DNA of 64,000 bases from Sinomonas cyclohexanicum. Its GTDB lineage: Bacteria > Actinomycetota > Actinomycetes > Actinomycetales > Micrococcaceae. A program made the translations under genes and the position numbers. Positions within the stretch are counted from its first letter, which is position 1, and every line of letters starts with the position of its first letter. This document shows positions 3,487 through 55,404 of the stretch, piece after piece. Below the pieces are notes generated by a model that was not told where the DNA came from, did not search any database, and saw nothing but the letters and a program-made list of their open reading frames with translations. The DNA is taken from positions 3,596,001-3,660,000 of the forward strand of contig NZ_AP024525.1 in assembly GCF_020886775.1 (NCBI RefSeq), written 5' to 3'.

Positions 3487-4437
3487 ATGACCGACCAGTC
3501 GACGGCCCCCCAGCCGGGCGCCATCGCATTCCTCGGCCTCGGCCACATGGGCGGCCCGATGGCGGCCAACCTGATCAAGGCCGGGTACTCCGTCGTGGGG
3601 TACGACCCGATGCCCGCCGCCGTCGAGGCCGCGAAGGCCCACGGGGTCCCGATGGCCGGGTCCGCCGCGGAGGCCGTTGCCGGTGCCTCCGTGGTGCTGA
3701 CCATGCTCCAGAAGGGCCAGCAGGTCCTCGACGTGTACCGCGGAACCGACGGGCAGCCCGGGCTCCTCGCGGTGGCGGCTCCCGGCACGATGTTCCTGGA
3801 CTGCTCCACCATCAACGTCACGGAGGCGCAGGAGGCCGCCCAGGCCGCGATCGACGCCGGCCACCGCGCGGTGGACGCGCCGGTCTCCGGCGGTGTCGTC
3901 GGCGCGGAGGCCGGCACGCTCACGTTCATGGTGGGCGGGGCCGACGAGGACTTCGAGACCGTGCGCCCCCTCCTCGAGGCCATGGGCAAGCGTGTGGTGC
4001 ACTGCGGCGCGCACGGGCTCGGGCAGGCGGCGAAGGTCTGCAACAACATGATCCTGGGTGTGTCCATGATTGCCGTGAGCGAGGCTTTCGTGCTTGGCGA
4101 GAAGCTGGGCCTCACGCACGAGGCGCTGTTCGACGTCGCCGCGCACGCCTCCGGCCAGTGCTGGGCGCTCACCACCAACTGCCCCGTCCCCGGCCCGGTG
4201 CCCACGAGCCCCGCCAACCGCGACTACCAGCCCGGGTTCGCCGGCGCACTCATGGCCAAGGACCTGCGCCTGGCCGTGAACGCGCTCGAGCACGCCGGGG
4301 TCTCGGCCGAGATGGGCCAGCTGGCGTCCAGGATCTACGACGCGTTCGCCGCCGGCGACGGCGCGGGCAAGGACTTCTCGGGCATCATCAACACGATCCG
4401 CGACCAGTCCGAACCAGCCGCCCCGCCCTCCGTCTAG
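3487..4437 (+). CDS. mmsB: 3-hydroxyisobutyrate dehydrogenase
   Basis: 316 residues. MmsB oxidises 3-hydroxyisobutyrate to methylmalonate semialdehyde, the substrate of MmsA. The N-terminus has the NAD-binding GxGxxG variant FLGLGHMGGPMAANL, then DAPVSGGVVGAEAGTL (substrate loop) and the catalytic lysine in GQAAKVCNNMILG (Lys183), all typical of beta-hydroxyacid dehydrogenases. ATG at 3487 follows AAGGAG with good spacing; a longer in-frame ORF upstream is a shadow of the preceding gene. The last two sense codons and the stop lie inside the left arm of the inverted-repeat element described at 4430-4932. Confidence 0.95.
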   Translation: MTDQSTAPQPGAIAFLGLGHMGGPMAANLIKAGYSVVGYDPMPAAVEAAKAHGVPMAGSAAEAVAGASVVLTMLQKGQQVLDVYRGTDGQPGLLAVAAPGTMFLDCSTINVTEAQEAAQAAIDAGHRAVDAPVSGGVVGAEAGTLTFMVGGADEDFETVRPLLEAMGKRVVHCGAHGLGQAAKVCNNMILGVSMIAVSEAFVLGEKLGLTHEALFDVAAHASGQCWALTTNCPVPGPVPTSPANRDYQPGFAGALMAKDLRLAVNALEHAGVSAEMGQLASRIYDAFAAGDGAGKDFSGIINTIRDQSEPAAPPSV

Positions 4438-4493
4438 GGGTCACCTTCTGGGGGTCACCTCCTGGGAGTCACATTCTGGGGGCCACCTCCTGC

Positions 4494-4597
4494 GGGTCGC
4501 GTGGGCGAACTCCCCAACCTTCGATCGATGCCGCGCGCGACACGCCGGCAGAATCACCCGACACGCCGCGCATTGAAGCTTAAAGCTGGGCGCGAAG
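4494..4597 (+). repeat. Internal direct repeat, copy A
   Basis: About 104 bp that recurs as copy B at 4756-4859 with scattered substitutions. Shared landmarks are CTCCCCAACCTTCG, CCGCGCGCGACACGCCG and ATTGAAGCTTAAAGC. Both copies lie within the inverted-repeat element. Confidence 0.8.
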
Positions 4598-4665
4598 CCC
4601 GAAGGACCTGCCTCCCAGGAGGTGGCCGCAGAAGCTGGCGCGACCAGGGAACCTAGGCGCGGTCA

Positions 4666-4695
4666 CGCACGACGGCGACCACTCGCCGTCGTGCG
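4666..4695. repeat. Perfect hairpin of the CGCACGACGGCG family
   Basis: CGCACGACGGCGA (4666-4678) pairs perfectly with TCGCCGTCGTGCG (4683-4695) across a 4-base loop. The same arm sequence recurs in several other intergenic regions of the window (about 40254, 41462, 47030 and 55398). Confidence 0.75.
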
Positions 4696-4755
4696 CGACC
4701 TCCCCTGGCGCCCCGCGCCCCGTCTGAAAGTCAGCTTCTGGGGGTCACGTCCCGA

Positions 4756-4859
4756 AGGTCGCGCGTGGCGAGCTCCCCAACCTTCGGTCGATACCGCGCG
4801 CGACACGCCGACACAACCACCCGACACGCGGTCAATTGAAGCTTAAAGCCGGGCGCGAA
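4756..4859 (+). repeat. Internal direct repeat, copy B
   Basis: Second copy of the ~104-bp unit at 4494-4597. It is preceded by the internal copy of the TCAGCTTCTGGGGGTCAC motif and followed by the right inverted-repeat arm. Confidence 0.8.
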
Positions 4860-4978
4860 AGCACACCGACGAAAGGTGATCCCCGGAAGCTGACTTCTAG
4901 ATGGTGACCCCCAGAAGGTGACCCACAGACGGGGGCGTGGGCGTCGAGCCGCCTCCGTGCCGGGAAGTCCCCCCGCGT

Positions 4979-5482
4979 CTACGCGAAATCGCCCGCGTCG
5001 CGGCGGAATTCGCCGAGGATGCGGATCAGGTCCTCGACGTCGCTGCCCGTGAAGCCGGACCGCCCGAAAACCTCGGTGTTGAGGGCTGCCGTCGCCTTCT
5101 CGGCCAGCGCGCGCCCCTCGGCCGTGAGCTCGATGAGCGTGGTCCGTCCGTCCGTGGGGTGGCGCGTCCTGGTCACGAAGCCAGCGCCCTCGAGGCGGTC
5201 CACGGCGTTGGTCACGGACGTGGGGTGCACCTGGAGCAGGGCGCTTGCCTTGCTCATGGGCAGCGCCCCGGTCCGCGCGAAGCTCAGGAGCGCGAGCATC
5301 TCGTACCGGGCGAACGTGAGCCCGAGCGGCTTGAGCACGTCCTCGATGCGGGCGATCAGGATCTGCTGGGTCCGCATGATCGCGGTGATGGCGGCCATGG
5401 GCGCCGCGACGTCGCCCCACCCGTGCCGCTCCCAGTTGCGCTGGGCGTCGGCGATCGGGTCACGGGGAAGCGGGGCGCCCAT
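4979..5482 (-). CDS. MarR-family transcriptional regulator
   Basis: 167 residues with a winged helix: an N-terminal dimerisation helix, then LTFARYEMLALLSF, the recognition region ALLQVHPTSVTNAVDRLEGAGFVTR and the wing RHPTDGRTTLIELTAEG, which is the standard MarR signature. The start has a strong GGAGGA. It lies 32 bp downstream of the acyl-CoA synthetase on the same strand, so the two are probably co-transcribed and the regulator may control them; the ligand is unknown. Close relatives sit beside acyl-CoA synthetase and acyl-CoA dehydrogenase genes in other actinobacteria. Confidence 0.9.
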   Translation of the reverse strand: MGAPLPRDPIADAQRNWERHGWGDVAAPMAAITAIMRTQQILIARIEDVLKPLGLTFARYEMLALLSFARTGALPMSKASALLQVHPTSVTNAVDRLEGAGFVTRTRHPTDGRTTLIELTAEGRALAEKATAALNTEVFGRSGFTGSDVEDLIRILGEFRRDAGDFA

Positions 5483-8995: not shown

Positions 8996-9058
8996 CCCGA
9001 CCTCGGCGCCACACGACCCGATCTCGGCGCCCCACGACCCGATCTCGGCGTCATACGG
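8996..9058 (+). repeat. 21-bp tandem repeat, three copies
   Basis: Three consecutive units (8996-9016, 9017-9037, 9038-9058) of consensus CCCGAYCTCGGCGCCMCACG-A. They begin two bases after the stop codon of the small hypothetical gene. A single partial unit occurs at 736-748 and its left flank. Confidence 0.85.
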
Positions 9059-16392: not shown

Positions 16393-16402
16393 CACCTCAC
16401 CT

Positions 16403-16449
16403 CCCCTTTCTGTCCCCTTTCTGTCCCTCTTCTGTTCCCTCTTTTCCCT
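16403..16449 (+). repeat. Homopyrimidine-rich 11-bp tandem repeat
   Basis: CCCCTTTCTGT (16403-16413 and 16414-16424), CCCTCTTCTGT (16425-16435) and a degenerate fourth unit fill the glsA-ansP gap, almost purely pyrimidine on the coding strand. It ends about 24 bp before the ansP start and could affect translation or transcript structure. Confidence 0.75.
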
Positions 16450-26104: not shown

Positions 26105-26162
26105 TCCAGCGGCCCACAGCCGATCCATCCTGAGCAGCCAATCCATCCTGAGGAGAATCCCC

Positions 26163-33855: not shown

Positions 33856-33897
33856 GGGGTCTCCTCGGGACAGCTGCCCCGGGAGGGGACGCACGGG

Positions 33898-33933
33898 CGC
33901 CGGCCGGTCACCTTCAGGGGTGACCGGCCGGCG
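33898..33933 (-). terminator. Strong hairpin terminator of the erythrulose operon
   Basis: CGCCGGCCGGTCACC (33898-33912) pairs perfectly with GGTGACCGGCCGGCG (33919-33933) across a 6-base loop, 52 bp after the stop of the GntR gene that ends the minus-strand operon. Confidence 0.8.
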
Positions 33934-40253: not shown

Positions 40254-40328
40254 GCGCACGACGGCGCGCCCGCACCTTCCCGGCGCGGGCCGGCCGCACG
40301 TTGACCCGACCGAGTCGACGTCGTGCGC
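40254..40328. repeat. Inverted repeat of the GCGCACGACG family
   Basis: GCGCACGACG (40254-40263), starting right after the TRIC-gene stop codon, pairs with CGTCGTGCGC (40319-40328), enclosing a GC-rich stretch (GCGCCCGCACCTTCCCGGCGCGGGC) that can form a smaller hairpin. Probably the terminator of the TRIC-type gene. Confidence 0.6.
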
Positions 40329-40367
40329 CCTTGACGAGGTGGCCACCCGAGGGGTTTGGCTTGGAGT

Positions 40368-41471: not shown

Positions 41472-41506
41472 CGGGCCCGCACCTTCGAGCTGAAGGTGCG
41501 GGCCCG
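41472..41506. terminator. Bidirectional hairpin terminator
   Basis: CGGGCCCGCACCTTC (41472-41486) pairs perfectly with GAAGGTGCGGGCCCG (41492-41506), loop GAGCT, followed by TGTGTTT. Lies between the convergent aldo/keto reductase and substrate-binding-protein genes. Confidence 0.85.
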
Positions 41507-41510
41507 TGTG

Positions 41511-41532
41511 TTTCGACTCCGCTCAACCGCCG
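41511..41532. repeat. TTTCGACT-CGCTCAACC dispersed motif, copy 1
   Basis: TTTCGACTCCGCTCAACC followed by GCCG; 20 of 22 bases match 48355-48376. From memory, closely related motifs are frequent between genes in Micrococcales. Confidence 0.6.
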
Positions 41533-46975: not shown

Positions 46976-47041
46976 CGCGGGGTGACGGCGCCCCCCACCC
47001 TGCCGAGCCCACCATTTCCGCGGGCGGTGCGCACGACGGCG
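46960..47041. repeat. Dispersed composite intergenic element, copy 2
   Basis: CGGAAATGGTGGCTAACGC, GGTGACGGCG, CACCCTG and GCGCACGACGGC in the same order as copy 1 (41382-41470). Here GGAAATGGTGG (46961-46971) pairs perfectly with CCACCATTTCC (47009-47019), a hairpin not preserved in copy 1. The element starts inside the response-regulator gene. Confidence 0.7.
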
Positions 47042-47081
47042 CGTGGTCGCCACGCTCGGGCCGGGCGCCCGCCGTCGTGCG
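47030..47081. terminator. Hairpin between convergent genes
   Basis: CGCACGACGGCG (47030-47041) pairs perfectly with CGCCGTCGTGCG (47070-47081) around a GC-rich loop, five bases before the stop of the convergent MFS gene. Member of the CGCACGACGGCG hairpin family. Confidence 0.65.
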
Positions 47082-47085
47082 TGGG

Positions 47086-55318: not shown

Positions 55319-55320
55319 CG

Positions 55321-55386
55321 CACCGCCGAGGAGTTACCTCCGCGGCGCCGAAGAGTCACTTCCGCACTGCCGAAGAGTCACCTCCG
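55321..55386 (+). repeat. 22-bp tandem repeat, three copies
   Basis: Units 55321-55342, 55343-55364 and 55365-55386 share the pattern CRCYGCCGARGAGTYACYTCCG; a fourth partial unit (CACCGCC) follows. Begins two bases after the mobA stop. Confidence 0.85.
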
Positions 55387-55404
55387 CACCGCCACACGCA
55401 CGAC

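Follow-up and report, generated by a model that had tools for sequence, protein, structure and literature searches.

Related repeat systems

Mycobacterial interspersed repetitive units (MIRU) are intergenic tandem repeats of actinobacteria, which are polar with respect to genes and touch stop codons, as do the arrays described here. Their units, however, are longer (about 40–100 bp), and they do not face each other between convergent genes as the Sinomonas arrays do. Tandem polar roadblock terminators such as the eukaryotic TTF-I Sal boxes likewise consist of short oriented sites clustered just past the genes.

REP sequences and BIMEs are palindromes tagged with GTAG or CGTC (PMC3733652). They resemble the Sinomonas arrays in being short, multicopy, extragenic and mostly placed after genes, in lying between convergent or unidirectional ORFs, often as facing pairs, and in forming species-specific families (PMC3733652). 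By contrast, the array unit is repeated head-to-tail at a fixed period that differs by species, and its polarity follows the gene. A REP is a palindrome of 20–40 bp with an unpaired GTAG or CGTC tag, whereas the 14-nt unit RRGTCASSTYCTGR is not palindromic; arrays often begin with CGTCTG, in partial resemblance to the CGTC tag. The position expected of REPs, extragenic and mostly downstream of genes, is that of the A arrays. A REP/RAYT system was rejected because RAYT (Y1_Tnp, PF01797) was not found in any of 15 Sinomonas genomes, in searches where the positive controls were detected. CGTC-REPs have no known transposase either, and Actinobacteria are not named in the same article (PMC3733652). 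By this search for the Y1 family, and with many arrays shared at orthologous sites, the Sinomonas arrays are not a transposon of known kind.

DNA uptake sequences of the Neisseriaceae are likewise short motifs with species dialects, and they double as terminators where inverted pairs stand at gene ends, much like the facing pairs of arrays (PMC3630211). Uptake sequences characteristically occur in very high copy number, inside genes as well, and are needed for transformation. The Sinomonas arrays differ in being tandem, in numbering about a hundred, against at least a thousand, and, at the loci sampled, in being almost never intragenic. Repeats of this kind from Sinomonas or Arthrobacter were not found in the literature searched, the coverage of which was incomplete.

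The mmsB 3' end is a mosaic of three modules

The window analyzed is a 64,000-nt stretch of a 4.41-Mb Sinomonas chromosome (G000 in the comparisons). In this window, mmsB, which is 93% identical to its S. cellulolyticus homologue, is followed by a convergent marR-like gene (Table 1), and the gene finder gave no credible gene between the end of mmsB at 4437 and the marR-like gene at 4979. Rather than being a single inverted-repeat element, the intervening structure combines three kinds of repeat module in a mosaic, each of them recurrent across Sinomonas. Module A consists of tandem 14-nt units, module B is a hairpin, and module C is an element of ~85 nt.

Table 1. Features between and including mmsB and the marR-like gene (window coordinates)
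Feature	Position	Strand	Evidence
mmsB (3-hydroxyisobutyrate dehydrogenase-like), upstream gene	3487..4437	+	gene map, homologues
A array 1: CGTCTAG + 4 units of 14-nt repeat, sense to mmsB	4432..4492	+	TRF; model R1, E = 5e-19
Module C, copy 1 (~85 nt)	4508..4592	-	model R2, E = 3e-22; alignment
Inverted A array, degenerate (~3 units); end of first A-C-A' sub-unit	4603..4637	-	
Hairpin B, perfect 13 bp, CGCACGACGGCGA-CCAC-TCGCCGTCGTGCG	4666..4695	.	RNA fold, z = -6.3
A array 2, 2–3 units; opens second A-C-A' sub-unit	4723..4761	+	
Module C, copy 2, 88% identity to copy 1	4772..4855	-	model R2
A array 3, inverted (~4 units), in the sense of the marR-like gene	4871..4930	-	TRF; model R1, E = 7e-16
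marR-like regulator gene, convergent to mmsB	4979..5482	-	gene map

The original prediction was of an inverted-repeat element, and its description was confirmed by direct reading. The 14-bp tandem units, the perfect 13-bp hairpin and the gene-free interior are all present, and the inverted arms (4430–4459 versus 4903–4932) match at 28 of 30 positions with a perfect run of 22 bp. These arms are the outermost array of each side, and their pairing extends to 70 nt at 79% in a repeat search. Units of 14 nt can be read at 4438–4493 (+), 4728–4755 (+) and 4883–4924 (−), and a degenerate set at 4601–4641 (−). The left arm does include the mmsB stop codon, with the TAG at 4435–4437 lying within a truncated first array unit (CCGTCTAG GGGTCACC). 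The direct duplication, put at ~104 bp, is real; its length is 93 nt at 88% identity (4504–4596 and 4767–4859), the larger figure taking in weaker flanks. It corresponds to the repeated A-C-A' sub-unit.

Module C, in its first copy, has imperfect inverted ends and two GGCGTGTCG direct repeats. Hairpins of type B are also present at other gene ends within the window. As a regular centre between arrays, hairpin B was discarded: this position holds at mmsB and at the mixed loci described below, but a crude detector picked it up at few A loci. We infer that module C and hairpin B are 3'-end elements in their own right, which are nested at the mmsB locus.

Copy number and range

The arms are not unique to this locus; more than a hundred related sequences occur in the genome. 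Their number is not due to chance. Within the window, GGTCACCTTCTGGG has 8 matches with up to two mismatches, compared to 0.67 expected; genome-wide, it has 43 matches with up to one mismatch, compared to 4 for a control pattern. The A-array model (R1) gave at least 145 matches among the 150 candidates scored in G000, 138 in G013, 99 in G003 and 97 in G004, and lower numbers in seven other Sinomonas species. Four Sinomonas species had none (15 genomes searched), and no match was seen outside Sinomonas among 120 genomes of the family. Module C (R2) is present in 1 to 15 copies in 14 of the 15 Sinomonas genomes; beyond the genus, a single weak match was obtained. All six copies in G000 lie within about 20 nt of A arrays.

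Rfam covariance models of described structured RNA families did not match A, B or C; a weak, below-threshold match at one locus (L023) was taken as chance. At another locus (L021, 578–713, minus strand), a TPP riboswitch aptamer (RF00059) passes the gathering threshold; an A-C-A' composite lies about 300 nt away.

Placement and polarity of the A arrays

To place the arrays relative to genes, we applied a simple codon-model gene finder, written for the purpose, to 41 array loci in G000; these loci were sampled because of their strong arrays, and only the stretches around matches were analyzed. A stop codon is found 5' of 51 of the 73 intergenic arrays in this sample, at a median distance of 9 nt. 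For about a dozen arrays, the leading GTCTGR of the model spans the stop codon itself, as at mmsB. Two sampled arrays lie inside a predicted gene.

Gaps containing arrays in G000 were convergent in 18 cases, tandem in 20 and divergent in 2, compared to 6, 55 and 19, respectively, of 80 gaps without arrays. Arrays are hence enriched between convergent genes (18/40 versus 6/80, OR 10, P = 3e-6) and rare between divergent ones (2/40 versus 19/80, P = 0.01). Pooling of four genomes gave P values of 3e-14 and 1e-7 for the convergent and divergent classes, with orthologous loci in part counted more than once. Between tandem genes, the stop-adjoining array is in the sense orientation at 36 of 48 loci (P = 0.0007), and nine of the 48 carry antisense arrays only. 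It is because each gene has its own sense array that an inverted repeat appears between convergent genes. An exception to the 3'-end rule is a locus conserved in four species (L151/L211/L233/L254), where an antisense A array lies directly upstream of a start codon, between co-directional genes.

Many arrays occupy orthologous sites in G000, G003, G004 and G013, with differences in unit number and composition. In the dnaA-starting chromosomes of G000 and G013, the middle fifth (40–60%) is array-poor, with 5 of 78 listed loci (P = 0.002). This scarcity around the expected replication terminus is consistent with long residence near core genes.

Constraint on the 14-nt unit

We took 181 interior units in register, without selecting on the score of the unit itself. 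Among them, positions G3, C5, A6, T9, C11, T12 and G13 are fixed at 92–99%, positions 1, 2, 10 and 14 are near two-fold, and positions 7 and 8 are C or G. This profile is alike in four species; as the arrays were detected with a model of the same consensus, the degeneracy profile depends partly on detection. Mutual information revealed neighbor effects and correlation of the same position between adjacent units, and no complementary or compensatory covariation between unit positions. Variants common to adjacent units are expected from tandem duplication. Judged from these patterns, the constraint looks like recognition of sequence rather than of paired structure.

The A unit resembles the tail of 16S rRNA (GGATCACCTCC). 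Anti-Shine-Dalgarno mimicry was rejected as a general explanation, since positions 7, 8 and 10, which fall in CCTCC, rank with the least conserved, and the second array family, H, is without any such resemblance.

Species dialects and a second array family

The A core has the consensus GRGTCASSTYC and occurs at periods of 14, 19, 21, 22 and 32 nt overall. In other Sinomonas, the same core (as GRGTCACSTCC) is found at periods of 19, 21 or 32 nt, with the 21-nt period in G011 and G014 and the 32-nt period in G007/ASV322. The original prediction had named conservation with mmsB in all relatives, or arms without further copies, as grounds against it, and the outcome is mixed: the arms have many relatives, yet the 3' end of mmsB carries different arrays, or none, in different species. 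A arrays with module C are present in this species and in R1AF57 (G003). In ASV486 (G014) and G002, arrays of a 19-nt unit (GTTGAGGGGTCACGTCCCC) face each other, and in S. humi (G005) the facing arrays have a unit of ~31 nt (TTTCGGGTACAGATAATCCACCCC...), to which the unit in G001 (CGTCTCGGGTACAGAAACTCACCC) is related. In S. cellulolyticus, G012 and G007, the gap measures 14–17 bp and is array-free. In G013, mmsB is followed by an additional gene, and an inverted A array lies next to marR; a different gene lies next to mmsB in G004 and G008.

Family H comprises units of ~31 nt with the core GTYTCGGGTAC and is unrelated to A. Exact copies of the core GTYTCGGGTACRNA number 192 in G001, 99 in G009, 67 in G005, 56 in G013 and 23 in G000, with no match to a reversed control pattern. 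H clusters also lie between convergent genes (15 of 22 placed intergenic clusters), and A and H arrays can substitute for each other at a site. At two or three mixed loci (L135 in G000, L285 in G008, and the orthologous L213 and L259 in G013 and G004), one gene is followed by an H array and the convergent gene by an A array, around a strong hairpin, each in the sense of its gene; L213 and L259 also contain a short inverted A array. Because A and H cannot pair, the long hairpin is dispensable. These mixed loci argue most strongly against both a terminal-inverted-repeat reading and a hairpin requirement.

At one locus in G006 (L179), a third array family is seen, with seven 21-nt units of a TTCCCC core at 1850–2001. 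Across a C module from these lie seven inverted units of CTGAACTTGGGGAAGCAGGTC (2060–2200), and the ends of the C module (TCCCCAGCTT) resemble the TTCCCC core.

What the arrays may do

The anatomy of the arrays is well documented: they begin about 30 nt or less from a stop codon and mostly share the orientation of the preceding gene. The best reading of the mmsB-locus feature is that it would belong to a system of repeat arrays at gene 3' ends found across the genus. With some hesitation, we favor the idea that each array is a series of short sequence-specific sites for 3'-end formation or insulation, a function suggested by their placement, polarity, constraint and interchangeability, which fit clusters of recognition sites. 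Each unit would be recognized by a putative sequence-specific factor, which would either form a polar roadblock on the DNA or act on nascent RNA of the 3' UTR, and the cluster of sites would help end or insulate transcription, most usefully where two genes run into each other. Arrays would grow and shrink via tandem duplication, which would account for variable copy number and species dialects. Bacterial protein roadblocks (reviewed in PMC10310618) are comparable to the arrays in anatomy only. No candidate factor was found for the arrays, which counts against a functional reading. A more specific version, which we consider rather unlikely, is that clusters of oriented sites bound by dedicated, co-evolving putative factors act as polar 3'-end signals, with two or more unrelated motif/factor pairs (A and H; possibly also F, TTCCCCRGCTT) interchangeable at the same gene ends and drifting into species dialects. 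How convergent genes in high-G+C bacteria stop without collision is poorly understood, and the arrays bear on this question. They offer a handle on it, in the form of candidate sites, natural replacements, and array-free species as controls.

The strongest alternative to a functional role, and a quite conceivable one, is that the arrays are tolerated, functionless repeat DNA, comparable to REPs: they would spread, now or in the past, by some copying process, be amplified by slippage and survive mainly behind stop codons, where insertions would do little harm. REPs likewise are found after genes and rarely in divergent gaps (PMC3733652). Convergent pairs with A arrays are a minority, of order 10% as estimated from the convergent-pair density of the window, so the arrays are not generally needed. 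Array-free gaps of 14–17 bp exist. Private tandem repeats of Arthrobacter also favor the first 40 nt after stops (11 near, 6 far), so part of the placement of the Sinomonas arrays may be plain tolerance. Tolerance alone, however, would not be expected to generate the sense polarity or a unit constraint that is uneven and constant across species. The identity of arrays is, moreover, largely stable at orthologous sites, and the failure to find a Y1 transposase in 15 genomes speaks against a REP-like origin as well. Should the arrays be tolerated repeat DNA only, they would be a clear case of gene-polar repeats without RAYT.

Base pairing between facing arrays, in RNA or in a DNA cruciform, might instead produce an ordinary bidirectional stem-loop terminator, which we deem improbable. 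The original prediction had included a long-range mRNA structure, and such a structure can form at mmsB, where the transcript of 4400–4980 folds at z = -9.1 with the arms paired. Adjacent arrays mostly face inwards (53, versus 10 outwards and 5 in the same direction), and a perfect stem of at least 9 bp is found in 46% of convergent A gaps, compared to 2% of shuffled controls. An intrinsic terminator has a G+C-rich stem-loop followed by a T run; stems form where arrays face each other, though not at all loci. Single arrays are common, however, and, apart from L032, mostly fold no better than shuffled controls, no pairing can occur at mixed H/A loci, and correlations within units are not compensatory. 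Pairing is not required.

A mobile element bounded by terminal inverted repeats, either a MITE or a composite, as originally proposed, is already disfavored and highly improbable: inverted ends, a non-coding interior, multiple copies, and the short array-free gaps that S. cellulolyticus, G007 and G012 have at this site would suit it, but the arms are open-ended tandem arrays of varying length rather than fixed ends, arrays also occur singly and follow their own gene in sense, unrelated families can face each other, many sites are common to four species, no target duplication is seen by inspection, and a search of 15 genomes found no Y1_Tnp. Among the three interpretations put forward in the original prediction, which is supported in part, a rearranged repeat array comes closest.

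Other repeats and hairpins at gene ends in the window

All non-coding arrays detected by TRF in the window lie at gene 3' ends. One of them (55319..55393, plus strand) is a 22-nt tandem array (CGCACCGCCGAAGAGTCACCTC, 3.4 copies) with an A core (GAGTCACCTCC), which starts at the base after a TAG stop and has a GCACGACGGCGCC hairpin and then a convergent gene behind it. Three other tandem repeats, whose units of 21, 11 and 18 nt are unrelated, are present at 8996–9057, 16402–16440 and 26117–26152, starting 2, 9 and 12 nt, respectively, after predicted stops. Gene-end hairpins are located at 33888–33930, 40254–40330, 41480–41525 and 47030–47083, most with a GCGCACGACGGC-like stem start. This recurrent stem resembles hairpin B, and the hairpin at 33.9 kb contains GGTCACCTTCAGGGGTGACC.
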